Position numbers and translations under genes: made by a program
Shown here: positions 14,615 to 42,436 of the stretch, piece after piece
Position numbering within the stretch: position 1 is the first letter of the stretch
Layout of the letters: each line of letters begins with the position of its first letter
Source: Bryopsis sp. KO-2023
Lineage: Eukaryota > Chlorophyta > Ulvophyceae > Bryopsidales > Bryopsidaceae
Direction: 5' to 3'
Assembly: GCA_030272585.1 (NCBI GenBank)
Contig: BSYQ01000002.1
Span: 1,054,001 to 1,118,000, forward strand
Length of the DNA: 64,000 nucleotides
The notes under the pieces: model-generated
The model's input: only the letters and a program-made list of their open reading frames with translations
Database searches by the model: none
Told to the model about the DNA's origin: nothing

Positions 14615-14917
14615 ATGTCGAAACTTCTCGCGTCCACTCTATTGGTCCTCGTGCTGTCGACAGTGGGGGTTGATTCCAGGCCAGTTGGTTTCGGAAACCA
14701 TTTTGCGCTCGCGCCCGAGGAACTGGTTGCACCGCTTCTCAACGGAGGTGTGCGTTTCACTACATCCAGCACGTTTTCGTTTTTCGTTTTTCGTTTTGAG
14801 TGAGTGTGGGTCTCGTTCTTACCTGTACGATGCTTCGCAGAGCCATCGTCTTGGTGCGGTGACGGACACGGATTTCAGGAATTCATTTGGCTCTCCCAAC
14901 AGTTATTGATTGATTGA
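14615..14917 (+). pseudogene. Secreted peptide family member 1, 3' end truncated
   Basis: Exons 14615-14747 and 14841-14917 give 69 residues. Exon 1 (44 codons plus 1 nt) is nearly identical to that at 32901: a signal peptide (Met-Ser-Lys-Leu, Leu/Val core, Ser-Thr-Val-Gly-Val) then Ser-Arg-Pro-Val-Gly-Phe-Gly. The donor is G|GTGTGCG and the acceptor CTTCGCAG, phase 1. Exon 2 begins like its paralogs with Trp-Cys...Gly-His-Gly-Phe-Gln-Glu-Phe but then runs into (attg)n and a copy of the dispersed 55-bp repeat, and stops. The second Cys and the terminal Cys pair are lost. The promoter and exon 1 are intact, so it may still be transcribed. It is called a pseudogene by inference; a short active form is possible. 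Confidence 0.7.
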
Positions 14918-14923
14918 TTGATT

Positions 14924-14966
14924 TGGGCTTTGGCCTGGCATGTTTTGTATTATTTTTCGTTGGTTG
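14924..14966 (+). repeat. Dispersed 55-bp repeat, representative copy
   Basis: Consensus by eye: cccgatgctataggctctgg then cctggcatgtcttgtgatat then ttttggttggttgg. Other copies: 15847-15892, 18352-18402, 32452-32501, 53856-53914 and 62163-62220 (plus); 24562-24618, 24709-24764, 31341-31388, 41936-41991, 46514-46552 and 60230-60282 (minus). Twelve copies in 64 kb, in both strands, in introns and between genes. This copy has (attg)n on its left and ends the coding part of peptide member 1. Confidence 0.85.
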
Positions 14967-15187
14967 ACCTCAGCTAATCGTAGTCGGCGATCCACGGATC
15001 CTTCGCCAAGGATCTCGCGACCCAAAAGCCGTGATACGAATCTCCAAAAAAGCAACCTCTCGCCAATTCTACTTACGATATCAAAGCTAAGACTGGGGTC
15101 ATATTCACAGCGCACTTATAGCAAAGAGTCGTAGACTGGCGATCAATTCAAGTCGAAAAAAACACTGGTGGTCTCTCTAGCGCCGCC

Positions 15188-15589
15188 ATGTCGAAATCGT
15201 TTGCGATCGTTGTCTTGGTCCTCATGGCTTTCACAGTGGGGGTGCTTTCCAGGTCAGTAGCTGTTCCAAATGGTACGGCCAGAGAGAGGACGCTCTTTTT
15301 CACAACGCTTCTTATCGAAGCAAACACTCCAGCTGCGATTGCTCGGCGTTGTGCCACCCACTATCGCTGGGCGTGTGGGCGTTTTTCAGCAGAGTATTGG
15401 ATGTTTACGATTTTTTTTTAATCCACAGGGAAGGATTGGTGCAAGCCTTGCTTATCTTTCGATCGCTGCATCGACCTCCTTGATTCGTGCCACAAGGAAG
15501 GCGCGGAGGGAGCGCTGTTTGGCCTCGGGATGCCGTTTAGGATGGAGTGTTGTTGCTATTATTATCGACCTCTTTTCTCGGGAAAATGA
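15188..15589 (+). CDS. Secreted peptide family member 2
   Basis: Exons 15188-15272 and 15429-15589 give 81 residues. The signal peptide resembles members 1, 3 and 4 (Met-Ser-Lys-Ser-Phe-Ala, Thr-Val-Gly-Val-Leu-Ser-Arg). Intron phase is 1, as in the others. The exon 1 donor (G|GTACGG at 15273) is the best candidate; exon 1 could extend further. The mature part is Cys-rich: Trp-Cys-Lys-Pro-Cys, Phe-Asp-Arg-Cys, Ser-Cys-His-Lys, Glu-Cys-Cys-Cys. It keeps the WC...C...CC frame of the family but has extra Cys and lacks the Gly-His-Gly motif. It starts 270 bp after member 1 but does not share that promoter. Function unknown; small, secreted and disulphide-rich is all that can be said. Confidence 0.65.
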
Positions 15590-16385
15590 AACGGGACAAC
15601 GACTTCGCCGGCCACGGTCTTCTTCTCGGAAATGAGCAGCACCTCTTGCTGCGCTGCTATAACGTAGCTAGTAGAACCCATCCATCAGTGCCTTCTTTTT
15701 TTGTCGAGTTTTGACATGTGCTGGGGTGGCTTCCTCACCTGTCACACATTTTGGTTGGTTTTTTGTGATGGCATTCAGTCAAAATCGAGACTGCTTAGAG
15801 AGTCCAGTAGTAAATTGGAATGGGAATTTTTGAGGTTTTTCCTGTATCCCCTCGATTGTATAGGCATGTCTTGTAGAAATTTCGGCTGGGACGTTTTGTG
15901 TAAACATTTGGCTGTCCTATGGGTTTCTGGGTGTGGAATTCATGTGAAACTGTGTCATCATAAAGATTTCTTAAATGGTAAAAGACGTTTCAAACCCAAT
16001 CTCTTTTTTAAGCCCACTGTGGTTGGTGGCTCCGACCTCAATCTCCCAACAGAAACTTGAAAAAGAGTAACCTTACCTCGAATAAATTTTTTCTTCGACT
16101 CGTACAAAATTCTTGAATCGGTCCCAAGGTAAATGAAAAAATTTGAAAGTGGTGAAGAAGAAAAAAGAAAAATCTCCGGCGGAATGAAAATTGAGTGGTG
16201 TCTTGTCCACACAACGAGATAAGAGTTCACTCAGCAGTTTAAGAGTTCAAAGTCTTGACAAGTCTTTTTTTAGACATTAAAACGCCTGCATCTCTTCGTT
16301 CACTTTAAGTCCAAGTGATCCTCCTGTGTTTTTCTGGAACTACCCATTTAAGACTATGATCAAAATTTTTAAAAAATTCCCGTCG
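15590..16385. other. Intergenic with one dispersed-repeat copy
   Basis: A copy of the dispersed 55-bp repeat lies at 15847-15892. The 119-codon open frame across it (15701-16060) is therefore not called as a gene. Confidence 0.45.
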
Positions 16386-16470
16386 GCACAAGTGGCCGAG
16401 TGGTCCAAGGCGTCAGACTCAAGACCTGATGAAGCTCGTCTCCGCGTGGGTTCGAACCCCACCTTGTGCA
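16386..16470 (+). tRNA. tRNA-Leu(CAA)
   Basis: 85 nt. The acceptor stem GCACAAG (16386-16392) pairs fully with CTTGTGC (16463-16469), followed by discriminator A. The D arm is GCC...GGC, the anticodon loop CTCAAGA gives CAA, a long variable arm marks a class II tRNA, and the T arm GTGGG-TTCGAAC-CCCAC pairs fully. The anticodon stem has one mismatch (A31-C39). A box TGGCCGAGTGG and B box GGTTCGAACCC are intact. CCA is not encoded, as expected for a eukaryotic nuclear gene, and there is no intron. A clear T-run terminator is not adjacent. Confidence 0.88.
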
Positions 16471-19396: not shown

Positions 19397-19593
19397 CATA
19401 GGCGCAACCGGGGGGGGCCTGGGGGGGCCTGGCCCCCCTAAAAAATTCTCTGGCCCCCCCAAAAAAGCTAGCAAAAAAAAAAATAAAAAAAATCTTGTTT
19501 AGTAGATTTTCTACTACACGGTACAAAAACAAGAGTGGCCCCCCAAAAAAATATTTCGGCCCCCTCTCCCCCGAAATCCTGGTTGCGCCTATG
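19397..19593 (+). mobile_element. Third hAT-type miniature element (CATAGGCGCAACC ends)
   Basis: 197 bp with inverted ends CATAGGCGCAACC and GGTTGCGCCTATG, flanked by the exact 8-bp duplication ggcacacc (19389-19396 and 19594-19601). G-rich then C-rich subterminal runs flank an A-rich centre, a design common in hAT-related miniature elements. The 248-codon minus-strand open frame at 18975-19721 runs straight through it and is not a gene. Confidence 0.85.
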
Positions 19594-20225
19594 GGCACAC
19601 CACCGGTTTTCCCCAAGTGAAAGGGTATCGGGGGGTAGAATCCACGACGCTTCGTGGTGCGTGCTCTCTCTCTCTCTGTTCGACGACGTCTCCTCGAGGA
19701 GCGAGGTGCACGCTCTTTCACGGCGTGGCTGTGTTTGTCGACGGTATCATGATACCCAGGCGCAGGTTACCTCGGGGATACGTACTCAATTTTACAGCGT
19801 AAGTTACGCTGCGTAACACGATTTCCCGTAATTGATTGTGCAAAGCACGGGAACTCCCTGAACAGCTCTACTGGCCAGTCAGACGCCCCGCGGCGGCCCG
19901 TGCGAGCCCCCTCGATCGTTGACCTCCTGGGAGTAATATCCTGTGGAGCGGAACGGCCGTACCATTGCATTTGGATTTTCCCTGGCCGCTCGCTGCTTCA
20001 TGATCGGCGCGTGACTAACGAGCTCCTAGAGTATGTACGTACATTGAAGTGCATAGTCGTTGCAAAAACGAAAAGTTGACAGCTTCGGGCAAGCACGACC
20101 TTGTCTTTCTTCGTGCAGAAAAAGCAACAGGCGTTGGTTGCAAGGAAACCACGGGCAGCAAAGGGTGGAGCGTGCTCGTGATCTACACTCGTTTCCGGGC
20201 GCTTCGGATTTAAGCAAGAGGGGAG

Positions 20226-21347
20226 ATGGGAGCCAACCAGTCCGCGCTGTGGCTTGCGCTTGCGGTGCTGCTCGCCGCTAACTCAGGTAACGCGGTTGAG
20301 TTGACGTGCATGGAAACTTCCTTGACGGGTGGTGGTAAGATGAGGACCCGATCAGCGTCAGTGCGCCTTCGTACCAACCGGCCTACCCCCGTTTTTTCCC
20401 CTCAGGGAAAAGCCTGTTTTCTCAGGAGAAAAACGCAGGAAGGTCATGCGGAACGGCAGAAAAGCGCCGGAGAACGCTGTCGTAGAAAGACGTCCTAAGA
20501 ACGTCTCCTGCGCGATTTTCAGCGCCATAAATCTCCCGTTCCACGATTTGCACGGACACAAATGTACGACACTGCTTCCTGAATGTGAACACCCCCCCAT
20601 TCTGGGGAAGGGGTCTTCTCCTCTGATCCTGAGGGTCAATTTGCTCTGCGGGGGTAACAACAGGCGAGGCATGGAAGTCACTGACAAGCCCTCAAGTCAC
20701 TGAACCAAACCAAGAATTACATGTGCAGAATCCCGGGCCTCCATTGCAAGTCACTGAAGCCCCCAAGAATGATCTGCTGGATGGTCGCCGTGATGGTCCG
20801 CGGCGGGGTGTAGCGACCCAACAGGGCAATGGTGTACGCAATCAAGGAAATGGACTAGGCAATCGAGGTCGGGGCATTGGACAAGGCAACGGCCAGGTCG
20901 ATAATCAGAACAATGGGATAAGGCAGCGCTTGGATCAGGTTGCTGGGACGCAGGGCAATCTTGGCCAACTGGCCAGTGCCTTGCAACGGTCTACAAAAAG
21001 ACGAAACAACCCGAGTAAGTTACAGTGTTGCCCACATTGTAGATACATGTGCCAGAACTTGAAATGTTTTAATGTTCGAAAGGCCCAACTGCTCGCTGGT
21101 CATTGCAGGTAGGTGGCAGTTTGAAGATCAGTCTTTTGGGGGTCCAAAAGAGGGGAAGCTTACACTGTTTTTTTGTCTTTCCTCCAATTGGGATTTTGTT
21201 GTGGGGTTACCGTTTCTGATGATTTCCATACACAAGGGTGTATGTGTTGTTCCTTGCTGATTTCCCTTCTGCCCTGTTTCAGACAACCAGGGCTCGTCGT
21301 CGGCAGTTCTGCAGAGAATCAAAGGTGAACATGGGCTTGGATTTCTC

Positions 21348-21397: not shown

Positions 21398-24157
21398 ACT
21401 CATGCCTCAACCTCCCCTGAGCTTGCACCTGTCAAATCTTATTTTCTTCCGTTACCCAACCCCCCCCCCCCCCCCTCCTGATTTTTCTCCTACAGCGCAG
21501 CTAACTCTATGCTCATGGTGATAACAGGCATTTCCCGAGGTAGTGGTGGCGATGGTGGCACTGGTGGTAAGCAAACAGATTGAGTTGAAACAAACCCAAG
21601 CTCCACCAGGATTTCTGGGCCTGAGATGTTAGAAGAACCACAGTCAAACTTAGGTTATGTGCAGCTGATTGCGTGTGTGTTTTTCTTGGCCTAAGATGTT
21701 CAAGTTCTACGAGCTGCGGTGGAGGCTTCTGTGACACAAGCTTCAGGTTGGTTAAGAATTTCAACAGCCTAAATTCTATTGTTGAGCAACTGAACAATTT
21801 TTACCCGCAGAGGAGCATCTCTTCCAAAGATTCCTCAATATTTATAACATTAATTCTCGTAGCACACCTGGTACATTTCCCAAGCTTATTTGAAGGTCTG
21901 ACGGTCTGTTGTCTTCTTTTCATGGATGCTAATGTACAGAATCCAGTACCCTTCTTGAGACTTTAAGAGACTCTCCCCCACCATCCACCCCTGCTCCTCC
22001 ACCATCCACGGCCACACCACCACCATCCACTCCTGCTCCACCACCAGCAACTCCTGCCCCTCCACCAGCTACCCCTGCTCCGCCACCCTCAACCCCAGCT
22101 CCACCCCCAGCGACCCCAGCGCCACCGCCATCTACTCCAGCGCCACCGCCATCAACTCCAACGCCACCGCCATCAACTCCAACGCCACCGCCATCAACTC
22201 CAACGCCACCGCCATTTACCCCTGCCCCACCTCCATCATCTCCAGCGCCACCGCCATCAACCCCTGCTCCCCCACCAGCTACCGTTGCTCCTCCACCATC
22301 AACACCTGCTCCGACACCATCTACTCCAACGCAACTGCCATCTACCCCTACCCCACCGCCATCTACCCCTGCCCCACCTCCATCAACCCCAATGCCGCCG
22401 CCATCCACTCCTGCCCCACCTCCATCAACTCCAGCGCCACCGCCATCAACCCCGGTCCCACCACCATCAACCCCAGAGCCACCTCCATCTACTCCGACGC
22501 CACCTCCATCAACCCCAGAGCCACCTCCATCTACTCCGACATCAACTCCAGCGCCACCGCCATCTACTCCAACGCCACCACCTTCTACCCCTGCTCCCCC
22601 ACCAGCTACCCCTGCTCCTCCACCATCCACGGCCACACCACCACCATCCACTCCTGCTCCCCCACCATCTTCTCCTGCTCCTCCACCATCAACCCCTGCT
22701 CCGCCACCATCTACTCCTGCTCCGCCACCATCTACTCCTGCTCCACCACCAGCTACTCCTGCTCCACCACCCGCTACCCCTGCTCCCCCACCATCTACTC
22801 CTGCTCCATCTACCTCTGCTCCACCACCATCTACTCCTGCTCCTCCACCAGCTACTCCTGCTCCTCCTCCAGCTACCCCAGCTCCACAGCCTGCTACCCC
22901 TGCTCCACCACCTGCTACCCCAGCTCCTCCTCCAGCTACCCCTGCTCCACCACCTGCTACCCCAGCTCCTCCTCCAGCTACCCCTGCTCCCCCACCAGCT
23001 ACCCCTGCTCCTCCACCTGCTACCCCTGCTCCACCGCCATCTACCCCAGCTCCACCACCAGCTACTCCTGCTCCACCGCCATCTACCCCTGCTCCTCCAC
23101 CATCAACCCCGGCTCCACCCCCAGCGACCCCTGCTCCACCGCCATCTACCCCAGCTCCGCCACCATCTACTCCTGCTCCCCCACCAGCTACCCCTGCTCC
23201 TCCACCTGCTACCCCTGCTCCACCGCCATCTACCCCAGCTCCCCCACCAGCTACTCCTGCTCCACCGCCATCTACCCCTGCTCCTCCACCATCAACCCCG
23301 GCTCCACCCCCAGCGACCCCTGCTCCACCGCCATCTACCCCAGCTCCACCACCATCTACTCCTGCTCCCCCACCAGCTACCCCTGTTCCTCCACCTGCTA
23401 CCCCTGCTCCACCGCCATCTACCCCAGCTCCACCACCAGCTACTCCTGCTCCACCGCCATCTACCCCTGCTCCTCCACCATCAACCCCGGCTCCACCCCC
23501 AGCGACCCCTGCTCCACCGCCATCTACCCCAGCTCCACCACCATCTACTCCTGCTCCCCCACCAGCTACCCCTGTTCCTCCACCTGCTACCCCTGCTCCA
23601 CCGCCATCTACTCCTGCTCCTCCTCCAGCTACCCCTGCTCCACCACCACCACCCGTAAACACCATTTGCCTGAATGCCTGCAGTTTCCGTTGTTCATCCA
23701 GTTCCTCTCTAAGGGATTATTGCACCATGGCGTGCAGTGCGGTAAGTTTACCAAATCAAGGAAGTTTCTTGCGACAGTTTCGCACACTGGGGTTGGGGAT
23801 ATGTTTTTTATAGGGACCACTTCTAAGGGGACCTTGACAAGTCACAGCGGTTCAGCATTATGCAATATGAATCGTGACCTCTGAGCCAAATCAACTGGGA
23901 TTATTCGAAGAAAATTCGTTCCAGACAATCCAGTTTGCTTGTGAAAGGAAAAATCAGCAAACCAAAAAATTTCTGTTGTGTTTCTTAATTTTGTGCAATC
24001 GAATCGGCCAGTCGTGAAAGTGTTTAATGCTTAAGACGTGCCATTTTTGCTTCGATTTTCAGTTTTTTTATTAATTTGGGTTTTTCTCCACTTCCAGGAC
24101 GCCACAGCCTCGAGTGGTACCGGACCTGCAGATATATTTGCAAATGATTTCTGTTAG
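20226..24157 (+). CDS. Secreted proline-rich (HRGP-like) protein G (8 exons)
   Basis: Exons 20226-20286, 20751-21014, 21283-21324, 21528-21566, 21696-21746, 21811-21870, 21940-23741 and 24098-24157 give 792 residues. The first seven exons all join in phase 1 and the last in phase 0; every junction stays open. Exon 1 is a signal peptide (Ala-Leu-Trp-Leu-Ala-Leu-Ala-Val-Leu-Leu). Exon 2 is rich in Gln-Gly-Asn-Gly repeats. Exon 7 encodes about 570 residues of Pro-Pro-Pro-(Ser/Ala)-Thr-Pro-Ala repeats, then a Cys tail (Cys-x3-Ala-Cys-x3-Cys-x9-Cys-x3-Cys). The composition and layout fit a hydroxyproline-rich, O-glycosylated wall or matrix protein; this is inferred from composition. The exon 2 acceptor is the weakest link: the site used by its paralog (ggcag) is mutated to ggcat here. 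Gly-rich frames on the opposite strand are shadows. Confidence 0.75.
23034..23600 (+). repeat. 189-bp higher-order repeat in the Pro-rich exon
   Basis: The block starting ccgccatctaccccagctcc recurs at 23034, 23223 and 23412, exactly 189 bp (63 codons) apart, with very few differences. It is a higher-order repeat made of 21-bp PPP(S/A)TPA units and points to recent unequal exchange or slippage. Confidence 0.9.
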
Positions 24158-27257: not shown

Positions 27258-30200
27258 TGGGGTAGTGGGGGTCATGCAACGGTATGTATCAGCATGTTAG
27301 CAAGAACTTGAAGGAATTTTTTGATATTACCTCACCCATCCTTCGCCTTTCATTCCAACAAACAAAAATTATCTTCAAATGCTTGCGCGCAAGAATTTGT
27401 GCAATTCCCAAATTTGTCCGGGCTTCGCTGAACTGCAAGTGGAAAAAAAACCCAAATCAATAAAAAATGAAAATCGAAGCTACACTGGCCCGTTTTCCCG
27501 ATTGACAACTTTCATCATGACCAGCAAATTTGATAACGCAGAATTGGGAACAGAACAAAAGTTTTTTCGGTTGCTGATTTTTTTGTCCACAAGCAACGTG
27601 GATTGTCTCAAAACGAGTTTTTCTTCGAATAGTCCATTTTATTTAGCTTAGAGATCATGTTGATAACTTGTGAAACGCCTGAGTCTCTAGCCACACATAG
27701 CGCATAATGTCGAGCCGTTGTGACTTGTCGAAGTCCCCAGATATATGTGCCAATAAAAACAAATCCCCAACCCCACTGTGCTAAGCTTTCGCAAAAGCTT
27801 CCTTGATTTTGGAAACGTACCTTATTGCACTCCTCAAAGCAGGAAAAAAGTGGATTAGAAAGACAGCGTCCCATGCAGGCTGTCGTGCAAAAGTTGACTG
27901 GGGGGGGGGGGTGCCGGAGTAGCAGGTGGAGGAGCAGGGGTAGAGGGTGGTGGTGGTGGAGCTGGGGTAGAGGGTGGTGGCGCCGGAGTGCTTGGGGGTG
28001 GAGGAGGAGGGGTGCTTGGGGGTGGAGGAGGTGGAGTGCTTGGAGGTGGAGGTGCAGGAGTGCTGGGTGGGGGAGGAGCAGGAGTGCTTGGAGGTGGAGG
28101 AGCAGGAGCGGTTGGCGGGGGAGGTGCAGGAGTGCAGGAGTGCTGGGTGGGGGAGGTGCCGGAGTGCTTGGAGGTGGAGGAGCAGGCGTGCTTGGAGGCG
28201 GAGGCGCTGGCGTCCTTGGAGGGGGAGGAGGTGGAGTGACTGGAGGGGGAGGAGCTGGAGTGGTTGGAGGTGGAGGAGCTGGCGTTGATGGAGGTGGAGG
28301 AGCAGGGGTGGTTGGAGGTGGAGAAGCCGGAGTGGCTGGGGGTGGAGAAGCCGGAGTTGCTGATGGGGGAGGAGCCGGAGTGGTTGGAGGTGGAGGAGCA
28401 GGGGTGGTTGGCGGGGGCGGTGCAGGGGTGGTTGGGGGGGGAGGAGCTGGCGTTGATGGAGGGGGAGCAGGGGTGGCTGGAGGCGGAGGAGCTGGCGTGC
28501 TTGGAGGGGGAGGAGCAGGGGTGGCTGGAGGCGGAGGAGCTGGTGTGCTTGGAGGGGGAGGTGCTGGCGTTGATGGGGGTGGAGGTGCTGGCGTCCTTGG
28601 AGGGGGAGGAGGGGGAGTTCTGGGTGGGGGAGGAGCCGGAGTGGTTGGAGGTGGAGGAGCTCGCGTTGGTGGAGGTGGAGGTGCCGGAGTGGCTGGGGGT
28701 GGAGCAGCCGGAGTTGCTGATGGGGAAGGAGCTGGAGTGACTGGTGGGGGAGGAGCAGGGGTGGTTGGAGGTGGAGAAGCAGCGGTGGTTGGAGGTGGAG
28801 GAGCCGGAGTTGCTGGTGGGGGAGGAGCTGGAGTGGCTGGGGGTGGGGGAGCCGGAGTGACTGGGGGTGGTGGTGCAGGGGTAGAGGGTGGTGGTGCCAG
28901 GGTAGCAGGTGGAGGAGCAGGAGTAGAGGGTGGTGGTGCCGGAGTGGATGGTGGAGGTCCTCTTAAAGTCTCAATAAGGGCACTTGATGCGGTACCTAAA
29001 CAGGAAAATCAGCAACAACACAGAAAGCCTTCTGTATGGAATGCATATAACTCGTTCACCTCACAACATAATGCCAATTGATTAGGAGAAGAACCTTGTT
29101 GGAACCCCCCCTTCTTTTGGCCCCATCAGTAGACTGATTTTTAAACTGCCACGTGCACTGGCCTGCTAGCAGTTGGAGTCCTTCTAATCCATAAATCATA
29201 TAAAGCTGGTACCAAAACATGCATCTGTCAATGATGCTAAGTCTGACTTACTTGGGTCCTTCAGTCTGTCATCAGACTGCAGCAAGGCACCGTTCAGCTT
29301 GTCAAGCTTGCTGTCACCCTGAGTACCAAACCTCTGGTTCAAACGCTGCCTTATGCCATTGTTCTGATTATCGACCTGGCCATTTCCTTGACTAACACCT
29401 CGAAAAATGCCTCGACCAGTGCCCATACCATTGCCTTGAATGCCTAGACGTCCATTGGCTTGAATTCCTAGACGTTCATTGCCCAGACCATTTTCTTGAT
29501 TGCCTATACCATTGCCCTGTTGGGTCCCTAGACCCTGCCGCGGACCATCCCGGCGACCATCCAGCAGGTCCTTCCTGAGGGCTTCAGTCGGCGATTTCCC
29601 TGCCTCGCCTATTGTTTACCCCCACAGAACAAAGTGGTCAGAATCAGAGCAGAAGACCCCCTCCCCAGAATGGGGGCCGTCACATTCAGGAAGCAGTGTC
29701 GTACATTTATGCCTGTCCCCACTGAATCGTGGAATGGGGGGTGTGGGTGTTGAGAATCGCGCAGGATACGTTTTTTTTGGACGCCTTCCTACGACAGCGT
29801 TCTCCGACACTTGTCTGCCCCTCGCGACGACCTTCCTGCGTTTTCCTCCAAAGGAATCAGCCCTTCACCCTGCGTTAACGGGGGTAGGTCGGCTTGTTCG
29901 AAGGCACTGCTGCTTCTCAGGTTCCATCATTTCACAGCAAGACGCGTTAGGCACTGCCGGAGCGAACAGCGTGGGGAGGAGGGGGATCGTGCACGGAGAA
30001 TTCCGAACGACAATACATCGAAAGTGGTGCGTGAGTGCTTCCGTGGCGCCACGAAAGTAACGGGGAGCGAAAAAAAACGTAACCCGTCAAGAAAGTTTCC
30101 ATGCCTGTCGAAACAGCTGCGTTACCTGAGTGAGCGGCGAGCAACACAGAAAACGCTACCCACAGCGCGGACTGGTTGGAACCCATCTTCCCTTTCGCTT

Positions 30201-30508: not shown

Positions 30509-32700
30509 GTGCGACAATTCAACAGCTCAGCGTTGATAGTTAGGTTTTTCTTTGGAACGGTGGGATTTTCATTGTCCAGGGAGCTTTCTTTTGGGTGGGT
30601 TTTCTTTTTGTTGTTCTTATTTTCTATTACTCTGGCATTATGGGGGGTGATGGCCTCTTGTTGCCATAATTGATTTATTGATTGATAGTTAGGTTGGAGG
30701 TGTGGTGACCAGCGTATTTTTTTTTCAATGTATTGGGCCCAAAGTCGCCCTGAATTTGGCAATTTCAAATCATTGTGGCCCCAATTCGTCCAAAACAAAT
30801 TTGATTGTGGCCGCAACTTCAAAAACACAAATTGCAAGCTTGTTTTTAATATGGTGTTGGGCTGAAGATTCTGCGAGACTAAGGGAGACAGTCAGTTCGT
30901 TGGATGTGGTGTGAGGAGTCATAGTTGTAACTGATAGTCATAGCTTAGTAAAGGGGATCGGGAAGGATAAGGAGGTGTCTGTGAGAGGAGGAACTGACTC
31001 TTGTGAAAGTTTGGAAGCAACTTTGTGTCTCGAGAGTCTTACGGTGGCATTTATTTAATGCAGTTGGTTTTTATTCCTATGAAATCTCGATTCATTTCTT
31101 GGATGTAGCCCTTGGCATTGCACACTTTGGGTGGATGTGGCCCTTTTTTGGCCCCAAAGTTAATTTGTATTGTCTTATACAACTGTCACTCCGAACCCTA
31201 CAACTCCGAGAAATTCTAGAGTCTTAAAGTTGATTTGTTCGGAAAAGTTAAGATAGAGCTCGGAGCCTGCTCCTTCTCATATTTGGCTGCAAATAATTCA
31301 CTTTGCCATGAAGAGCCAAGGCCTTGACCAATAATTAACACCAAAAATTTCACGAGACATGCCAGGTCAGAGCCTATAGCATCGGGGGAATACAAAGAGG
31401 AAACCCCCTGGAGCTCAGGCGCCACCAATCCACGAATGTTGTTGTGTTGTGTTGTTTTGTTTTGTTTTGTTTTGTTTTGTTTTGTTTTGTTTTGTTTTGT
31501 TTTGTTTTGTTTTGTTTTGTTTTGTTTTGTTTTGTTTTGTTTTGTTTTGTTTTGTTTTGTTTTGTTTTATAGCGAATTTTGCAATGGCAATCATATATCG
31601 CCAGCGATCGGTTTTCGTCGCGAACCTGTGATTCCAATCATCGACGATTGGCACTGTCCCGACTGAAGCACAGAATAACGACCTTTTGTGGCGCTAATTT
31701 TCAAAAGAAAAATGTTCAAAAGCCACTCAAAGAAGCGTGGAAAAAGAGCGATCAAATTTAGGTCAGGGGACGTAAATTTAGCGGTATCTAGGAACTCTTG
31801 TCTCAGTTGCCCCCCGTGCGCTGCTAGGCAGAAAACAAAAATGGCGGAAATAAGAAACCTCGAATATCATAGTGCAAGACAAGGATCCACGCGCGTTTGT
31901 TCGATTTTCCGACCACCATTTTCTCGCGGATAAACACCAAGCGCTCACCACCGTTTTTGACAAAAGCGCCTGTCTTGTGGTAAAAGTTTTGGTTGTTGGC
32001 TTGGTTGGTTGCATAAAGGACGCCTTTGAGCTGGGGAAAGTGGAACTCAGATGGCGGCTGTTGAAATCAGCGTTGATGCTTGGCTCACTAATCTGCTGCG
32101 AGTGGTGCGTGTGGAAAAAAAGAGTGAAATTTTTGGAAAGGTAGAGTTAGGGGATTGAATCTAAGATCTTAGAGAGTCGATGTATATATGCTTTGATTCT
32201 GGTTTGGAGGAATTGACGGTTAAAAATAAAGGAGAGGAGGTTCAAGGTCATTTGGGTTGAATTGTATTGATTCCAGTTTGGGTTACGGTTGGGGAGTTGG
32301 GACCAAATGTTGATTGGGAAAAGTCACGAATGTTGTGACGACAATGGGGATACAAAAGGGATATTATTGTGTGGTGTTGTTATCTGGCCAGCCGGCCTTT
32401 GGTGTTCTGTATACCCTCTTATACCACTAGTTTTTATAGTGCGCGCGCAAGATGCTGCCGGCTCCCGCCTGGTAGGTCTTGTGATATTTTTGGTTGTTGG
32501 GCGATTTTGGGGAAACCTAAAATCAATGTGTCAGACCAGGGGTACTGACGCACTCGGAGACACCGCTGCCGCAATATTGCTTAGTCACTACCAGCAGTGC
32601 CATGGATGTCAGACTCCATTGAATGTCTGTCAAACACCAAGGGCAGCCAAACCATGAGTCAACACGTCTCGACCAATCGTAACGTGGGACTGTCATGGCG
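30509..32700. other. Intergenic with dispersed repeats and TTTTG microsatellite
   Basis: No gene is seen. Copies of the dispersed 55-bp repeat lie at 31341-31388 (minus) and 32452-32501 (plus). A (TTTTG)n run of about 115 bp lies at 31454-31568; the Lys-Gln-Asn-Lys-Thr and Phe-Val-Leu-Phe-Cys open frames over it are artefacts. Confidence 0.5.
31454..31568 (+). repeat. (TTTTG)n microsatellite
   Basis: About 23 perfect pentanucleotide units, opening from shorter ttg/ttgtg text. Confidence 0.97.
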
Positions 32701-32701
32701 T

Positions 32702-32788
32702 TACGTCAGCACATAGATCTCATGACAAAAAAGGCCGTTGGCCTAATCCCCCGTACGGCGATCTTTCGTCGCCTTCTGTTATACATAC
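32702..32788 (+). promoter_or_regulatory. Conserved promoter of the secreted peptide gene at 32.9 kb
   Basis: TACGTCAG (32702-32709) lies 199 bp before the ATG, atcccccgtacggcgatctttcg lies at 32746-32768 and a TATA-like TTATACATAC at 32779-32788 lies about 120 bp before the ATG. Further matches to the promoter at 14.4 kb run to the ATG (agcatttccacagcacaacg, tttgctcgtagc). Confidence 0.8.
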
Positions 32789-32900
32789 GTGCCACTCCAC
32801 AGCATTTCCACAGCACAACGTTGTTAGGGCAGGTCTTTTCACAGTACTTTACCGACTTTGCTCGTAGCTTATCCAACCTGTGTTTGTGTTTGCGTCAACA

Positions 32901-33274
32901 ATGTCGAAACTTTTCGCCTCCGCTCTATTGCTCCTCGTGCTGTCGACAGTGGGGGTGACCTCCAGGCCAGTTGGTTTCGGAACTCATTTTGCGCTCGCGA
33001 CAGAGGAGTTGGTTGAACCGCTTCTCAACACAGGTGTGCGTTTTTTTTACCACATCCAGCACGTTTTCGTTTCGTTGTTTTGAGTGAGTGTCAGTCCTTT
33101 TTTTAAACCTGTACGATTCTGGAATCGTGGTTGGCAGAGAATCTGTGGTGCCTCCCTGGACATGGATGGAAAGAATTTCTGCACCTCCAGATTGAGTGCT
33201 TGAACGCGGGCAGCCGCGCAACGTTCACGGGTAACCCATACATCGATTTCACGGTGTGCTGCCCCTCTACTTGA
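32901..33274 (+). CDS. Secreted peptide family member 3
   Basis: Exons 32901-33033 and 33138-33274 give 89 residues. The start is the ATG in gtcaacaATGTCG, the position conserved in members 1 and 4. Residues 1-21 are a signal peptide. The mature N-terminal part (Arg-Pro-Val-Gly-Phe-Gly-Thr-His-Phe-Ala) is followed by a phase-1 intron (G|GTGTGCG ... TTGGCAG). Exon 2 carries the family core: Trp-Cys-x3-Gly-His-Gly-Trp-Lys-Glu-Phe, Ile-Glu-Cys, Phe-Thr-Val-Cys-Cys. The four Cys could make two disulphides. No known family is recognised. Secretion is well supported; function (defence, signalling, mating, wall) is not known. Confidence 0.8.
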
Positions 33275-35737
33275 CTTCGTTGGAGCAGCGTTAAAGAAGC
33301 CCCGTAAACTTTCGGGGAGTGTGTGTGGGGGGGGTTTCTTTCTTTCCTCCCTTGGCATTCTATTTAACGGCGTATTTTGGGTGTTTTCTGGTTGGGTGTG
33401 GTGGTTCGACCAAGATCAGGTCGCAACAGAGTGGCTTTTTTTTGACTCGTTTTTCTATTTTTGGTCGATGTACGACAAGAACTGCATTTGTTATTTTGCT
33501 GTGTGAAGAAGGCGCTTTCTGTTTTTTTTTGGTGCGATGTTGGTAAGAAAAGATACAATCATCAACAAATTTGGCTGGTTTTTTTTTGTAAGACTGTGTT
33601 TTATTTCAAATCGATTGGATTGGTGTTGTACTTCACACTTGTTTTTTTTTGCTGTGTGAAAAATTAGGGCTCTTTTTTTCTTTCAACCTGTTTTGAGACG
33701 TATATAAAAACGAAACGTTTCGTGTTGATAATGGAACAGCAAGAATCAACAAATATAGAAAATAGAGAGATATACATATATATATATATATATATTTATT
33801 TATTTATATATATATTTATATATATAAAAGAGGCCATCAACCCAGCCAACCAACCTATTTTCTTTATTTATTTTTTACAAGCTATGACATCAACCCCACA
33901 ACACCAGAAAAGCGTTCTGTGTGCGTGTGTGTGTGTGTTTCGCCGTCGGTATTTTTCGGGAGAGGGGGGGTGGGGTTCTATTTTTTTGTATTTGGTATTT
34001 TATAATCGGAGACAGCGTTCGCGGAAATCGCGCTGACGTTTATTCGTATTCAGGTCGGTCTACTGACACACGATATGCAAGCGACCAGCATTGATTTGAT
34101 ACAACAGGCGAACCTCCTTCGAATTGAGACAAAATTTGTTCGCCAAGCAATCGCAGGGCCCCGCCGCAGGCTTCTCTCAAACACAACGGGCTTCCTTGCG
34201 GCGCTACTACAGCAATACCCACACGGTGGTTCCATGTCCGACGGATGTGCCCTGTGTCGGTCGCTTGCGCAACCCTACAACCCTAAACCAACCCTCCTTA
34301 TGTCGCACGTAGGAACCGTCCCTGGCGACTTTTAACGGGATGTCTTGGTGGGTCGACACGGACATCATCTTCTGGGAACTAGTTTTTCAAAAAAAAAAAA
34401 ACAAAAAAAACATCTAAAAAATCGTTTGACCATTTATCGTGATTGGCGGAAGTCAACGTGCCAGCACCACCCAGGGTTGCAAGAAACAAATTTTAGTAAA
34501 ATACGTTGCCTATATTATACGAGTTTTCTATACGGTTGAGTATCTTTCATACGAGAAAAATACGTCCGACTAAGCCAAAACCAAACCAAACCAAAAAAAC
34601 TACAATAAGCCAAAAACCTCAACTCTTTGGCCCCCATCGTTGCTGTTAGTTTCGTTTTTGTAGTTTGTTTTTTCGTCACTTGATACAATTCGCGTATTTA
34701 TTGCGTATAATACGTTGGCTAAAAAAAATACGCGTATGAACGTATGAAACGCGAGTTTTATACGCGTATCTGACAACCCCGGCACCACCGACGATTTTTC
34801 TGCATATATTTGTTTTCGGTTGGTGTGAATTTCAGGCGATCACTCGAACCAACCTCTCTCTGTTCGAGATTTTCAAAAAAAAATTGTTCTGTTCTTTTTC
34901 TTTCTGTTTTTTCTTTCTGTTTTTTGTTTTTTGTTGTTTTTTTTTTCTGTTTTTTTTTTCTGTTTTTCTTTTTGCAGATATCGAAAATGACTTTTCAAGT
35001 CAAGTGATCAAAATATTGATTTTTTTATGGCCGACTTTCGTGAAAGAACGATGGACCTGGGCAAAAAAAAAAAACAAGATTCGCCGTTGGAATGCAAACA
35101 GATCGCTGTTTTTTTTTTTCCTCAGTTCTATTCTTCAGCTCTTGTTCTGCTTCTCGACAGGTTCCACTCTTTTTTTTTTTCTTTTTTTTTTAAATAGCAC
35201 CGGTCGATTTCATATCCCAACACCTCCGTTATTCAAGGAAAATATTTTAGCAACAACAACAACAACAAGTACATATTACCTGAGGGGCCAATATTTTTAG
35301 CAACCAGGTCTGGTTTTCGGGGAAAGATTCTCTTCCTTGCTGGGAGAAAATACGAGCCACTCTCCCAAAAAGGGAACTACCAGTGGTTTTGCATGTCCAT
35401 TTTTTGGGGGGCGCCACAGTGGGTTAAAAAAAAAGAAAAAAAAAAAAAAAACACTGCTGAAAACATGAGAATAAACGTCGGTGCGATTTTCGCGAACAAG
35501 ACTTCCGATTATTATCGTTTTCAGAAAAAAAAAGCAATGGAGACGCACCCACAGAACCCTTTTCTTAAATAAATATTTTTATTTTACTTTATATTTTTGG
35601 TTGGTTGGTTGGTTGGTTGGCCAGGTTGATAGCTTCCTTTCTCTCGATATGTATTTTTCTTTATATTTTTCTTTATTAATTTTATATATTTTTATTATGT
35701 CTTTTTTCTCTCTCTTTATATTGGTCGATGCTCGCTG
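33275..35737. other. Intergenic region, low complexity and repeats
   Basis: 33465-33660 matches the reverse complement of 41640-41830 (shared atacaatcatcaacaaattt and tggctggtttttttttgtaa), so the peptide gene and its 3' flank were duplicated as one unit with member 4. TA repeats lie at 33771-33825. A 70-bp block at about 34270-34337 (aaccctccttatgtcgcac, ggaaccgtccctggcgactt) recurs at 58545-58615. Poly-T tracts fill 34870-35200. No gene is seen. Confidence 0.5.
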
Positions 35738-36352: not shown

Positions 36353-36474
36353 ATCCCAAGCACCACAAAAGTCAACCAAAAATGTCCCTAATAGCTCTAT
36401 ATATAAAACTCCCAAATCCCACCAAAAAATAATCTCCAAAAAAAGGGAGGGAAGAACACAGTTTCGGGATGGGT

Positions 36475-36736: not shown

Positions 36737-36800
36737 AAAACAAAGCACCAAAAAAATAGAACGCACGTTCATTTAAACCGGCGAAAACACCGCCCCCAAC

Positions 36801-38350
36801 TCACGCCGAAGCTGTTCCGCGGGGAGCACCATCCAGCCAAAAACACGAAAATCCCAAGGCGAAGGCTGTCGCTGACGATTGATATACTGAAAAATCGCCT
36901 GGGGAAGGCGACCAACCGCCCCAATCGCATAACTTCGGTAATGGCACGAGCAAATTAAACGCACTGGAAACCCCCGTGCGACGAACCGCATGATGCGTAT
37001 GGTCGGAACCATGATCCTTCATCACCCGTGTGCGAACCAACGTGCTACACTCCCTGCTGTCGGCACACTTGGATCACCAGGCAAAAACCAGAACTGCTCT
37101 GTCGTATCGCCATGGCCTTCCCAATCGCGCACCCGAAAATCCTCATAACGATCCAAAACCGCGGCCAACTCAGGAAACCCACGGCAGTCGAATCTCCTGA
37201 CTCGCAAACAATCCGAGGTTTGGCCCTTCGCCTTGAAACGCCGTTCTGTAAAAGTCACCGACGAAGAATCCCACTTATAGTCACCGACCCGAGTATCAAA
37301 ACTCGAATCGGCGCGCGAAAAGAATATCACATCCAAAATACAAATCAAATAGGGACGAATGCTTTCCGCATCGTTCCCAACCAAACCCTTCTTGGCCCAC
37401 GACCACAACCAGTCCATGGGAAAGTCTCTGGGCTGTGGTCAGAGATAGGACTTGGGCCAAATTTTTGGTCCGACTCCGGTCCGGTCCGGTTACGGTCGGG
37501 TTACGGTCACCGTACTACGGCCGTAACTCCGTACCGTAACCGGAGTAATATGTTGTTTTTACGGTACGGAACAGGTACGGTATAACTACGGTAGGCCCTA
37601 AATCATCGTGAAGTAGCGTGGTTCAGTGCTAAAGCGTTAGGCTGCAGTCAGTAGGGTCGCGGGTTCGAATCCCCCTGGGTTCCTTTGGAATCGCGGGACC
37701 CTGCGGGGGTCACTTTCTACGGTTTACGGTTGTTACGGCCGTTACGGTCGTTACGGTCCGGTACGGAGCGGTACGGAGTGGTACGGTGCTACGGTTACGG
37801 CCGTAAAAGTACGATTTTCTGACGAAAATTGTACTCCGGTTACGGTCCGGTTACGGTGGTTACGGTCCGGTTACGGTGACCGTAACCGTAAAGTCCTATC
37901 TCTGGCTGTGGTTCCTTAGCTTCTGAAGGAACCTTAATGAGCCAAGCTTGTTTCAGCCGAGCCGTCAAGGAGTCATGCGCAGAGAATGCGGATCCGAGCC
38001 AGCGGTGAACCGTACTGATTGCGGAAAGATAGTTGCTCATGGACTTCGGCGCCACTCTCCCTTCATTTCGAAGAAACAGGATATAAGCATAAATGCGAAC
38101 AGAGCGCGCCGGCACACAGCACCAACCTCTCGACCTAGCAAAACCCAGCAATTTTCGGAAGCGCATCCAAATAGATCTCCGACCTCCTGGGCTGTTCGAT
38201 AATGCTAAGTCGCCAAACAGCTCTCTGCGTTCGATATCCGACAATTCTCCAAACTGAGGTAGCGTCTCGTCGGTCCAATCGACGCATCCCTCCAATTCAC
38301 CCCATAGCTCCTGAAGCCACACCTCGTCTTGCGAATCACGCCCACCATGA
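36801..38350 (-). pseudogene. Tyrosine recombinase of the Ngaro-like element, interrupted
   Basis: Before the insertion (38350 down to 37913) the frame encodes a SAM-like core-binding domain (Leu-Leu-Gly-Phe-Ala-Arg-Ser-Arg-Gly-Trp; Tyr-Leu-Ser-Ala-Ile-Ser-Thr-Val-His). A 465-bp hAT-type element sits at 37440-37904. Skipping it and one copy of its 8-bp duplication leaves the reading frame continuous into 37417-37022, which has the first catalytic-Arg region (Phe-Phe-Ser-Arg) and the Lys strand. Near 37030 the frame shifts; the next frame holds the second box (His-Ala-Val-Arg-Arg) and a candidate nucleophile (Phe-Ser-Val-Tyr), ending at 36801. The N-terminus is undefined because no in-frame ATG is seen. 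Tyrosine recombinases integrate the circular cDNA of these elements without target duplication. Confidence 0.75.
37440..37904 (+). mobile_element. hAT-type miniature element with tRNA-Cys-like core, copy 3
   Basis: 465 bp, same ends as copies 1 and 2, flanked by the exact 8-bp duplication gctgtggt (37432-37439 and 37905-37912). Inserted in the tyrosine recombinase coding region of the retrotransposon. Confidence 0.93.
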
Positions 38351-40394
38351 CATTCCAACGGCCCTGGGGAAATGGTTCGTCCTCTCGGCCCAATGGGGGC
38401 AGTAACGGGTTGGCCCACGCTGGAATCACTGCATACTCCTGAAACAATTCGAACATCGGCCGAAACCAAGGGGCTGACGGCCACAAGGGCATCAACACAG
38501 TGGCGGTTACCTGAGGGAATGAGCGCAGCAGGTCCCCCAACTGCGAAAGCAGACGAATCGGTGGATGACACCACGCGTGGCCCTGGTCCCAATCCAAGGC
38601 ACTGAACGCCTCGTTCTCCGCCATCGGATCGCCCCATTCCGCATTGTAACGAAACACCACCTTGCTCCATTGCGACGCAAATCTGTCCAGATCGAACGGT
38701 CCCCACCATCGGTTGAACTGATTCAACCACTTCCGATTGATTAAATAATCCTCCTCCGAAATATTCGTTCTCGACAATTTGTCCGCCCACACATTCTCCT
38801 TCGAGGGAATCCACTCCGGCTGCAGAGCAATCTTTCGAGACTCCAAAATTCGATACAACACCTGAGTGGTCCCATCAGCCTTGGGCTCCGCGTCGTCATC
38901 TTCAACAAGATCGATAACACCACCTGTGAATCGGTTACCAGGCGAACTGTTCGATTTTCCAAGGAACCATGGAACGCGCGAATCGCTGCCTCCACTGCTC
39001 TCAACTCGAGCACATTTATATGCTCGCTCTTTTCGTCGTGCGACCAAATGCCCCGTGCCAGGACAGGAACGCTTCCCTTGGCCAATGGATCCACCAGGTG
39101 GGACCCCCAACCACTCATCGACGCATCGGTATAAAGACTGATCGTCGCTGGGACCTTCCAATAAACCGATGATGTGTGACGCTCGTTCATCACACTCCAC
39201 ACCGCCAGATTCTCCTTCGTCTCCGACGATAACTCGATTAAGGATGCCCAAGTCGCTCCCAGGGTCATATCCCAAAATAGGCTCCTGAGGTGGTATCTCG
39301 CCAATGGAATCGCCAGGCCCAAACTCTGACACCAACCCGCAAATCTCGCTAACCTTCTCTTGGGGACTTTCCTCATCTCTTTCAACAACCGCGCCTCCTT
39401 GTGGATCCGAGCAATCTTTTCCGGCGGTGCGATCACCAGACCCTGCGCTGTATCGATTATTAGGCCCAAATGACGAAAGTACTGCACCGCTATCCACTGG
39501 CACTTCTTTTCCTTCCACCGCAACTGCAAATCCATCAGGATCCCTCTGATCAATTCCCCCAACTTGGTCGCTGCCAGTTCGCTGCTCATTGCTCCAGCAA
39601 AGTCGTCCAAGTAGGGAGCTATCGTTGGCGCTGGGTTGCTCATCCAATACCTCCTCAATCCTGGGGACGTCGGACATTTCCACCTCGATATTCTGGGCGC
39701 TCGTAGGAAAGATACAACCGCTCGCATCACCTTCGTGAAAATCGCTGGGGCATTCACGAACCCGAACATCAGAGCTGGGAACTCGTAAGTCACTCCCTCG
39801 ATGGTCGCACAAAAGAAGCGGACCTCTGACTCCCGAAACCTGATGTTGAAGTAAGCGTCCTCCAAATCCCAGGCCACGATCCAATCCTGCGGTTGCAGAC
39901 GAGGGAGAAAAGAACGGAGGGTCTCGTATTTTACCGATAATTTGCGGCAAAAGGAGTTCACAAACCGAAGGTCGACGCACAACCTGTGGCCGACCACGAC
40001 GTCGTCTACCTTCTTTTCGACCAAGAAAGCGCGGGACACGTAATCCTTGCAACGCGCTTCCCTCATCGCCCCGCACCGTAAATACCGCTCCTTCAACTCG
40101 TTCCAAGCGCCTTTCAATGCTGTTGGAATGCGCGAGTTGCCATGGTGAAACTTCGGCGGCTCGGACGAAATCCAGTTCGGAACTACCCCCTGATCGAGCC
40201 ACGAGAGAACCGTCGGATTGGCCCCTATCTCGCGCCACGCCTTGAGGGCTCCCCGAATTCTGTTGAACCGAAAATTCCGGGAATGAATCTGCACTCCGTC
40301 CACCAACATCACTTGAACTCCGTTCCTGAACTCGCAGCTCCTTCAACGCTTCCGCAATTTCCAACGCTGCCTTAGAAGCCTTGGTTCTGCCCAT
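38205..40394 (-). pseudogene. Reverse transcriptase-RNase H of the Ngaro-like element, frameshifted
   Basis: The coding path starts at ATG 40394 (Met-Gly-Arg-Thr-Lys-Ala), overlapping the end of the Gag-like ORF. It changes frame near 40280, runs in the frame open at 38741-40312 and changes frame again near 38870 to end at 38205. The middle frame has RT motifs in order: Phe-Leu-Val-Glu-Lys-Lys, Cys-Val-Asp-Leu-Arg-Phe-Val-Asn, Trp-Asp-Leu-Glu-Asp-Ala-Tyr, Phe-Gly-Phe-Val-Asn-Ala-Pro and the catalytic Tyr-Leu-Asp-Asp. RNase H follows (Leu-Tyr-Thr-Asp-Ala-Ser; His-Ile-Asn-Val-Leu-Glu-Leu; Val-Thr-Asp-Ser-Gln). The last frame has the DIRS-type C-terminal signature (Trp-Ile-Pro-Ser-Lys-Glu-Asn, Asp-Arg-Phe-Ala-Ser, Leu-Trp-Pro-Ser-Ala-Pro-Trp). 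RT and RNase H residues are intact; the frameshifts are what break it. Confidence 0.9.
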
Positions 40395-41184
40395 GAGCTC
40401 CACCTCTATTACCCAAAGGCTGAAGGTTGGGGTTCGCTCGACCTCTGCCTCGCTGCGAAAACTGACGACCACCAAAACGACCGCCAGAAAAACCTCCTGA
40501 GGAATCTCCTCTGAACCCGCCGCTCCGCGACGAGCCCTCTGCTTGCCTTTTAAAAACTGCCTTCTGCTGTTGGTCCCTCAGGGACTTCAACGTAGCCTGC
40601 GCAGTGTCTCCGACAAAACGCCCTGACGACGCTGCTAATTTCACCGACGTGGACACCGCCCGAAAAGCCTCCGACAAAGGCGTGTTCACGTGTGCTGCGT
40701 GCAAACGGTGTACTTCCAACGTATTGGCTGCCAACTCCAAAATTGGCGCAAACGAAGAAACAAAAGGTTCCAAAGCCTTCTTCACTGCAGTCCCTTGATC
40801 CGAGTGCGCCGCAAATTGAGCAAAAAGGACAAACCAATCAAAAGCAAACGCCACGACAGGCGCCCACGAACTAAACTCAGCAAAGAACCCAGAACGCACA
40901 CCAAGAGCAGCACCCACGCGAGCACCCGCTGCTGTGTCCAACACGTCGAAATAATGGCCAAAAATGGCCGCTGCTGGTACCTCTACTGGATTTAGCGCCG
41001 CCCGTGGCGGGTCACTGCCTGGAGCAAGACACAGCTCCTCCAAACTCTCAGCGATCTCCGCCGACCCAGCAAATTTCTTCAGAATCCCGTCCAAACGAGA
41101 CTGTGGGGAACTCTGCTCTCCTGACGCTCTCAACAAATCCAGCTGTGCTTGTAACGCAGCAATCTTTTCCTCGACAGTCGGCAT
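40372..41184 (-). CDS. Gag-like ORF of the Ngaro-like element
   Basis: A 270-codon open frame from ATG at 41184, chosen over an in-frame start 12 codons upstream because the coiled-coil begins directly after it (Glu-Glu-Lys-Ile-Ala-Ala-Leu-Gln-Ala-Gln-Leu-Asp-Leu-Leu). The middle is helical and Ala-rich. The C-terminus is Gly/Arg/Ser/Gln-rich with RGG-like and GGRFGGR-type motifs and no zinc knuckle, which suggests RNA binding by an RGG tail. Position before the RT ORF supports a Gag role. Confidence 0.75.
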   Translation of the reverse strand: MPTVEEKIAALQAQLDLLRASGEQSSPQSRLDGILKKFAGSAEIAESLEELCLAPGSDPPRAALNPVEVPAAAIFGHYFDVLDTAAGARVGAALGVRSGFFAEFSSWAPVVAFAFDWFVLFAQFAAHSDQGTAVKKALEPFVSSFAPILELAANTLEVHRLHAAHVNTPLSEAFRAVSTSVKLAASSGRFVGDTAQATLKSLRDQQQKAVFKRQAEGSSRSGGFRGDSSGGFSGGRFGGRQFSQRGRGRANPNLQPLGNRGGAHGQNQGF

Positions 41185-41286
41185 CAAAAAAAGGACTAAC
41201 GATACAGGGACAAGCCCCACGCTGGCTGAGCCAGGGATGGTTCGAAACGGTGCACTTCAGGTGCCCGTGAGGGTAAAGATAAAGCA

Positions 41287-41456
41287 GAAAAACCGAGTAA
41301 AGAAAGACCAACTGAGTGAGCTTAAGAACCCAAACTACTGAGATCCAAAACTCCAAAAGATACCCCTACAGACCACCTCAGCAATCAGTCCTTTCAATCG
41401 TCCCACCCTAAAACTCCGCAAAAGGAACCGCGCTTCCTGCGGAACCGTAAATTTCC
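41287..41456 (-). repeat. Split direct repeat A1
   Basis: Same 170 bp as 36475-36644. This is the 5' terminus of the retrotransposon in its own orientation. Confidence 0.92.
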
Positions 41457-42073
41457 ATTACCCAAAAAAAACGTTTCATAAAACAGGCTGGGAAAAAAAC
41501 AAAAAAAAACACTCTACACAGCTCACGAAAAAAAAAAAGAGTAAGAAAGAAAAACACAAAAAGTGAGTCCAACAAAGAAAAACAAAAACAGTCTTTACAA
41601 AAAAAAAAACATATTCGTTCATGACTGTATCTTCCTCTAACCAAAATCACACTAAAAAAGTGTAAGAAAAGTGTGAGACGAAAAAAAATATATAAAAAAA
41701 CCCACCAGTCTTACAAAAAAAAACCAGCCAAATTTGTTGATGATTGTATCCTCCCCTTACTGGCACCACCACACCGCAAAAAAAAAAAAGCGCCTCTTTC
41801 ACACAGCAAAAACAAAAATACAGTTCTTCGTCGCACACCGACCTAAAACAAAAAAAAACACCCAGGGCATATCCATCGCTGAACAGATCGCCCAGGGAGG
41901 AGAAAGAACGCAGTCCGAAGAAAATCAACCCCCCACCAACCAAAAATATTATGACTCGAAACGCGCCAGGCCACAGCCTGCTGCATCCCCCCAAAACCGC
42001 CACGCTCCCCCGAAAGGTCACAGCGGATCTTTCTGTTTCTGTCTTTTGTTCTTTTCAACGCATCTCAGATATC

Positions 42074-42436
42074 TCAAGGCCTGATATGGCAGCAGAGGCG
42101 GAACTCGCCGTTAATATCGCCGGTTTCGGTTGAAATGCCCCTGTCGTAAACGCACTCCCAAAAGATGTTCATATTTTCCTTGTATCCGTGTCCGCTACGG
42201 CACCAAGGGAGAGCTGCAAACCAAGATCCCCCGAAAAAGGCCCAGGTCAGAAACAACGAGAAACTTCACACACTCGCTCGAAACGACGACGAAAAGAGAG
42301 AAAACGCACTATAGAACTCAATCGATGCATCCCGATCTGCCGCGATCGCAGCCGTTCCGAAACCAAGTGGCCTGGAGGTCACCCCCACTGTCGACAGCAC
42401 GAGGATCAATAGAGCGGACGCGAAAAGTTTCGACAT
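42074..42436 (-). CDS. Secreted peptide family member 4
   Basis: Exons on the minus strand are 42310-42436 and 42074-42213, giving 88 residues. The signal peptide differs from member 3 at only a couple of positions. The mature N-terminal part diverges after Arg-Pro-Leu-Gly-Phe-Gly-Thr. The donor is A|GTGCGT and the acceptor GTTTGCAG, phase 1. Exon 2 has the family core: Pro-Trp-Cys-x2-Gly-His-Gly-Tyr-Lys-Glu, Trp-Glu-Cys, Phe-Arg-Leu-Cys-Cys-His. This exon matches member 3 in Cys spacing and in the Gly-His-Gly motif. Its 5' and 3' flanks also match member 3, in inverted orientation, with the retrotransposon between the two copies. Function unknown. Confidence 0.8.

Follow-up and report, generated by a model that had tools for sequence, protein, structure and literature searches.

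Conserved signal exons and diverging, apparently re-paired payload exons in a family of probably secreted cysteine-core proteins of the green alga Bryopsis

We describe here a gene family found in a 64,000-nucleotide stretch of contig C2 (G000:C2:1054001-1118000; hereafter the window) of the siphonous ulvophyte green alga Bryopsis sp. KO-2023, whose genome comprises 91 Mb in 28 contigs. Each gene joins a conserved signal-peptide exon, through a phase-1 intron, to a second exon encoding a small cysteine-framework domain, which we term the payload. The payload is diversifying faster than the signal. Besides this fast evolution, payloads seem to have been re-paired with the upstream delivery cassettes, judging from comparisons of genomic DNA.

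The family extends well outside the window. The signal exon of window gene 32901 has 13 DNA matches in the genome, itself included, with expectation values (E) below 1e-13; these matches, together with the independent annotation of the splicing of two window genes, exclude chance as the origin of the window family. Two signal-peptide searches yielded 21 and 37 hits at E<=10, a good many of which are weak when taken singly (as far as E 0.67), and their union plus window gene 15188 amounts to 39 signal-exon places. Contig C2 holds 35 of these, with 25 lying in its first 1.2 Mb; the binomial p-values for this distribution assume independent copies and serve only as description. Two-exon genes could be modelled at 27 of the 39 places; the other 12 are broken, have no payload that could be recognized or reliably modelled in the DNA read, or (C2:2502442, 3531408 and 3641637) were not among the loci read. 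Six protein-database entries represent eight member sequences, and so most copies of the family seem to lack annotation.

A script that imposed no intron phase returned phase-1 splicing in every member fitting the cysteine pattern. Between 2 and 6 splice solutions were available for a fitting gene; among them we chose by donor (GTGTGCGT, GTGCG or GTACG), and did so ahead of seeing the annotated proteins. Five of the six proteins returned from the databases (P0001, P0002, P0003, P0004 and P0006) equal the chosen models letter for letter. They include the 89-residue product of 32901 (P0004) and the 88-residue product of 42436 (P0003), both annotated by NCBI as hypothetical proteins, which bears out the two-exon, phase-1 structure originally predicted for these genes. 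All 27 models have a signal exon and a phase-1 intron, the phase here depending on donor offsets and exon-2 start peptides that were set by eye. The donors are GTGCG (13), GTGTG (5), GTACG (5), GTATG (2) and GTACA (2), and 25 of the acceptors end in CAG, that of V879 being uncertain. The signal region, again by eye, is hydrophobic with an MSK or MSN start and mostly an S-R-P near residue 21-23, and the proteins are probably secreted.

The histories of the two halves were compared by computing identity segment by segment and by local alignment of 3 kb loci. P697, P741 and P942 closely resemble Q568 in the 5' part of the locus (81-96% upstream, 95-96% in the signal exon and 93-97% in the intron), fall to 68-69% in exon 2 and are unrelated in the following DNA (44-45%). 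For P942 against Q568 the resemblance runs through two abutting alignments, of 93.3% (-1433 to -496) and 91.7% (-501 to 394), with segment values of 95% in exon 1, 97% in the intron, 69% in exon 2 and 44% (unrelated) in the 3' flank. Q568 and window gene 15188 are 85% identical in exon 2 and 93% in the 3' flank, but in upstream DNA (74%), signal exon (92%) and intron (89%) they fall short of the likeness between P942 and Q568. The neighboring genes R877 and V879 share 98% of exon 1 and 82% of the intron, compared with 43% of exon 2 (32-35% in other alignments) and 46% of the 3' flank. R877 and R6865 have a payload block of 91% (254 bp) against a 5' block of 76%, with only short repeats in common farther downstream. 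Window gene 32901 and D540 are alike from -198 to +220 and from +393 to +673 and not across exon 2 (238-374).

Among the 351 pairs of members, signal blocks are at least 90% alike in 20, and in 6 of those exon 2 is no more than 70% alike; R877/V879 lies outside these six, its 125-bp signal block (88.8%) being below the 90% cut. Conversely, exon 2 is at least 85% alike in 15 pairs, three of which have signal blocks of no more than 88%, with I373/J nearly even (88 and 87). The existence of both kinds of pair suggests that delivery and payload share their history only in part. The original prediction of a conserved promoter and signal exon over a diverging payload is thus upheld by both the segment identities and the locus alignments, but some of the strongest cases, besides diverging fast, are mosaics in which the 5' cassette and the payload have different closest relatives.

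Within the window, the like signal exons and unlike mature domains claimed for genes 14615, 32901 and 42436 are seen. Exon 1 of 32901 is 87% identical to that of 14615 and 81-83% to that of 42436; the corresponding exon 2 values are 54% and 51-53%, as against a mean of 43.5% and a 95th percentile of 52.1% for 100 shuffled exon-2 pairs aligned in a somewhat different mode. The window had been proposed to hold four such genes, of which 15188, 32901 and 42436 fit. Exon 2 of 14615 encodes ...WCGDGHGFQEFIWLSQQLLID followed by a stop, so that its 3' half is lost along with the central cysteine and the CC pair, and its similarity to the intact paralogue D540 ends ~63 bp into the exon. Gene 15188 can be spliced to an 81-residue protein with the Trp-Cys, two extra cysteines and a terminal CCC, and without a Gly-His-Gly (GHG) motif. 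The sixth database protein, P0005 (NCBI BSKO_02507, 97 residues), joins the signal exon of 14615 to the payload exon of 15188.

The payload core follows C-x15/16-C-x17-21-CC, with CC or CCC at the end, in 24 of the 27 models; V879 has 19 residues to the next core cysteine, U747 has lost that cysteine and Q568 ends in CxC. Tryptophan precedes the first cysteine (C1) in all models except D540, which has serine, and the terminal CC is present in 26. This core is the wider feature; the GHG motif originally listed with the Trp-Cys, central cysteine and CC marks one subfamily only. The commonest cysteine spacings are either x2, x5/x6, x6 in succession or a single x15, in both cases followed by the terminal CC. 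Extra cysteines at C1+3 and C1+9/10 are both present in 13 models and both missing from 13 (among these, K6468 and K8415 carry a lone extra cysteine at C1+4), V879 having only the first. This coming and going as a pair suggests that the two form an optional disulfide, though the relatedness of the copies weakens the argument. Net charge (K+R minus D+E, histidine omitted) is negative in 20 of 25 distinct payloads, positive in 3 and zero in 2. Since the payloads are mostly acidic, these are probably not cationic antimicrobial peptides of the classical kind; antimicrobial peptides were among the comparisons first suggested for the family.

The ratio of nonsynonymous to synonymous substitution rates (dN/dS; Nei and Gojobori counting), pooled over nine non-overlapping pairs, comes to 0.70 in exon 2, which is higher than the 0.44 of exon 1 and below 1. 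Individual exon-2 values above 1 are found for B530/D540 (2.05), C756/D540 (1.32), D540/F243 (1.75), G42436/H705 (1.59), P697/Q15188 (1.74) and P697/Q568 (2.10), which hints at positive selection on some branches. Two further pairs (K and S) have no synonymous change. Exon 1 exceeds 1 in two pairs, 32901/42436 (1.10) and R877/R6865 (1.58).

No relatives outside Bryopsis sp. KO-2023 were found by profile search of 5.8 billion proteins, in Pfam or among PDB sequences, in agreement with the original view that the family is not a recognized one. The profile search gave six matches at E<=10, all labelled "hypothetical protein" of this alga, and a second profile, from an alignment of mostly six-cysteine members, returned only P0006. 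No Pfam family rose above chance in scans of 13 and 11 members, three unrelated weak families being listed at E<=10, where the HMMER filters drop most weak matches. Against PDB sequences one profile gave nothing at E<=10, and the matches of the other were confined to three RNA polymerase L chains, with E ~2. Structure prediction had also been proposed as a check. The AlphaFold model of 42436 contains a confident beta-alpha-beta-beta mini-domain (predicted local distance difference test score of at least 90 at 40 of 88 residues), whose three strands and main helix all fall within the exon-2 domain. A second member is predicted to have the same order of elements at lower confidence.

EHEE-type mini-proteins (7rjf MOPD-1 and 5jg9 gEHEE_06) are unrelated to the family in sequence, with 0% identity in alignment, and comparison with them indicates no more than that such an arrangement is simple and stable. 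The copper-binding domain of APP (PDB 2fjz and 2fkl) was not among the Pfam matches (E<=10) of either set of members, the 13 or the 11, the HMMER filters dropping most weak matches. In plant and other cysteine-stabilized alpha-beta (CS-alpha-beta) defensins a CxxxC in the helix is bonded to a CxC in the last strand. The Bryopsis family, by contrast, has neither the helix CxxxC nor the last-strand CxC, the terminal CC taking their place in 26 of 27 models and Q568 alone ending in CxC.

The closest parallel in gene organization is with the conotoxins of cone snails. Passages of PMC3862624 describe conotoxin superfamilies as having a conserved signal sequence, introns conserved within each superfamily and a far more changed mature exon, with the first intron in phase 1 in all superfamilies studied except I2, although the same paper elsewhere describes introns within a superfamily as poorly conserved; rare recombination or alternative splicing is proposed. 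The Bryopsis genes share the conserved signal exon, the phase-1 intron and the divergent cysteine-framework mature exon. They differ in coming from an alga rather than an animal, in being unrelated in sequence (no conotoxin homology in the Pfam scans or PDB sequences), in their payload of ~45 residues with a predicted beta-alpha-beta-beta order, and in an apparent re-pairing of cassette and payload that is visible on genomic DNA between paralogues. They have one intron, as does only the A superfamily among conotoxins in that account (PMC3862624).

Our preferred reading, held tentatively, is that the 5' cassette delivers a disulfide-locked payload and that the family is a recombined repertoire of secreted recognition or inhibitory mini-proteins, likely directed against microbes. 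The promoter, signal-peptide exon and phase-1 intron would send the small payload domain into the secretory path, with C1 and C4 predicted to pair with the terminal CC. Residues between the fixed cysteines would form a variable extracellular binding surface, and duplication and recombination would re-pair cassettes and payloads. The repertoire would be diversified as its targets change, these most likely being microbes met at the wall or, on wounding, at the naked protoplasm. As extracellular interaction proteins, the family members would then probably act by recognition or inhibition. According to parts of PMC3252328, Bryopsis protoplasm can stay alive for some minutes in seawater with no membrane around it, the alga seems to be selective in the endophytes and bacterial flora that it keeps, and bryohealin, described as a lectin with an antibiotic domain, acts in protoplast formation. 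A secreted recognition repertoire would fit this way of life. Bryohealin and other Bryopsis lectins are tied to wounding; the payload family shows no lectin domain, with no lectin model found in the Pfam scans of members.

Several observations weigh against this reading. The pooled exon-2 dN/dS below 1 does not support positive selection overall; the ratio is below 1 in 15 of the 21 pairs with a defined value (for example I373/J 0.27, U1021/U747 0.38, R877/R6865 0.52 and B530/C756 0.16), and the six pairs above 1 represent only three independent lineages (D540, 42436/H705 and P/Q). Exon 2 of P and Q is still recognizably homologous, so that divergence contributes besides exchange. Mostly acidic payloads do not fit membrane-killing peptides, and nothing in the data favors microbes over gametes or the cell wall. 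A role as pathogen effectors is unlikely, since the host is a free-living photosynthetic alga. The family might also be framed as a modular secreted-peptide repertoire, in which interchangeable payload exons on a new disulfide-bonded beta-alpha-beta-beta scaffold are re-paired with common promoter/signal cassettes by recombination and, at least at 14615-15589, also by splicing of one signal exon to a neighboring payload, giving immune- or venom-like diversification within one giant cell; this we consider conceivable but doubtful.

Somewhat unlikely is a reading without an arms race, in which gene conversion keeps promoter, signal exon and intron uniform and relaxed constraint lets the payloads drift. 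The two halves do seem to differ in age (32901 against B530 has dS of 0.15 in exon 1 and ~1.5, near saturation, in exon 2), the pooled exon-2 ratio is compatible with drift, and the signal exons at 14615, 1027977, 374371 and 407916 have a broken payload or none recognized nearby. However, 24 of 27 models preserve the cysteine core even as the intervening residues change, and several pairs are less similar in exon 2 than in the intron before it (48-55% against 81-83%). Fertilization commonly involves small, secreted, cysteine-rich and rapidly diverging families, and a role in mating or in sorting self from non-self protoplasm would account for such features. Both male and female plants of the strain were collected, according to part of PMC12509668, but the copy number, with at least 27 genes modelled in the genome, is high for a two-sex ligand, and we regard this role as unlikely. 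The link that BSKO_02507 makes from the 14615 signal exon, across that of 15188, to the 15188 payload might indicate that a single signal exon can be joined to more than one payload exon and that alternative splicing, besides gene copies, sets the repertoire. This is a single case, in which 15188 has its own open signal exon and a gene finder can merge neighbors, making the explanation quite unlikely. Least probable, in our view, is a structural or wound-plug role in the extracellular matrix in place of recognition. It would explain cysteine-rich domains behind a signal peptide, and sections of PMC3252328 describe a multistep wound response and lectin-aggregated protoplasts; against it, Pfam found no lectin or wall domain in the members scanned. 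Structural proteins also seldom need such payload variety.

Table 1. Exons, introns and shared blocks of the family in the window
Feature	Position	Strand	Basis or remark
Gene 1 signal exon (MSKLLASTLLVLVLSTVGVDSRPVGFG...), start of annotated BSKO_02507	14615..14747	+	Sequence, annotation
Gene 1 own payload exon, truncated (WCGDGHGFQEF... then stop)	14841..14917	+	Lacks central Cys and CC; D540 similarity ends inside
Gene 2 signal exon (MSKSFAIVVLVLMAFTVGVLSRSVAVPN)	15188..15272	+	Open reading frame, splice model
Gene 2 payload exon (WCKPC...C...C...CCC), annotated as BSKO_02507 payload behind 14615 signal exon	15429..15589	+	Splice model, annotation
Gene 3 upstream-to-signal block, 78% match to gene 4	32668..32983	+	Local alignment
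Gene 3 signal exon (BSKO_02510)	32901..33033	+	Splice model equals annotation
Gene 3 phase-1 intron, donor CAG/GTGTGCGT, acceptor GGTTGGCAG	33034..33137	+	Splice model
Gene 3 payload exon (NLWCLPGHGWKEF...C...CCPST)	33138..33274	+	Splice model equals annotation
Gene 3 3' flank block, 83% common with gene 4	33450..33596	+	Local alignment
Gene 4 payload exon (LPWCRSGHGYKEN...C...CCHIRP), AlphaFold beta-alpha-beta-beta domain	42074..42213	-	Splice model equals annotation, AlphaFold
Gene 4 phase-1 intron, donor ATA/GTGCGTTT, acceptor GGTTTGCAG	42214..42309	-	Splice model
Gene 4 signal exon (BSKO_02511)	42310..42436	-	Splice model equals annotation

Some further copies are worth recording. Two pairs of loci lie far apart on one contig and are identical in the coding sequence compared (C2:2711618 and 3072770; L079/L080) or differ by one substitution in it (C2:6468417 and 8415401; L022/L023), reflecting either recent segmental copies or an assembly effect. 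At C2:373185+ and 374371- (L018/L021) an intact gene converges on a signal exon with no payload recognized nearby, and a second such pair, C2:406610+ and 407916- (L017/L020), is ~33 kb away. Two loci, L051 and L054, were found by pattern only and are outside the 39 places. At L054 (C6:372167) a signal peptide of the same type (MSKAVAFALLLLMVSTVGAF) lies close to a candidate exon whose cysteine pattern differs, being denser and ending CCSKKG; this locus may be a further branch of the family.

Elsewhere in the window, a retroelement with reverse transcriptase and RNase H lies beside gene 42436 (37840-41220, minus strand; Pfam RVT_1 E 1.1e-10 for 38741-40312); its downstream open reading frame looks tyrosine-recombinase-like by eye, making the element putatively DIRS-like. 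Three WD40-repeat genes or fragments, all on the minus strand (9027-10199, which has an F-box-like domain, 3110-3646 and 45711-46229), hint at a local expansion. There are two long repeat stretches, one of TPAPPP type (22392-23813, plus strand), hydroxyproline-rich-like with a cysteine-rich tail, and one at 27825-29081 that is glycine-rich in the plus frame and should read proline-rich on the opposite strand. A trypsin-like protease gene with a threonine-rich repeat tail is represented by its 3' part at 55862-56422 (plus strand; Pfam Trypsin E 9.6e-8, profile 177-220 of 220).

Peptide families that combine conserved delivery with a variable payload are known mainly from venoms and from animal or plant defence. 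The Bryopsis family would be a large and seemingly mostly unannotated example in a siphonous alga, with visible cassette re-pairing. It would offer a new small cysteine-rich scaffold and a way into the question of how a giant cell, able to survive with no membrane, copes with microbes or mates.

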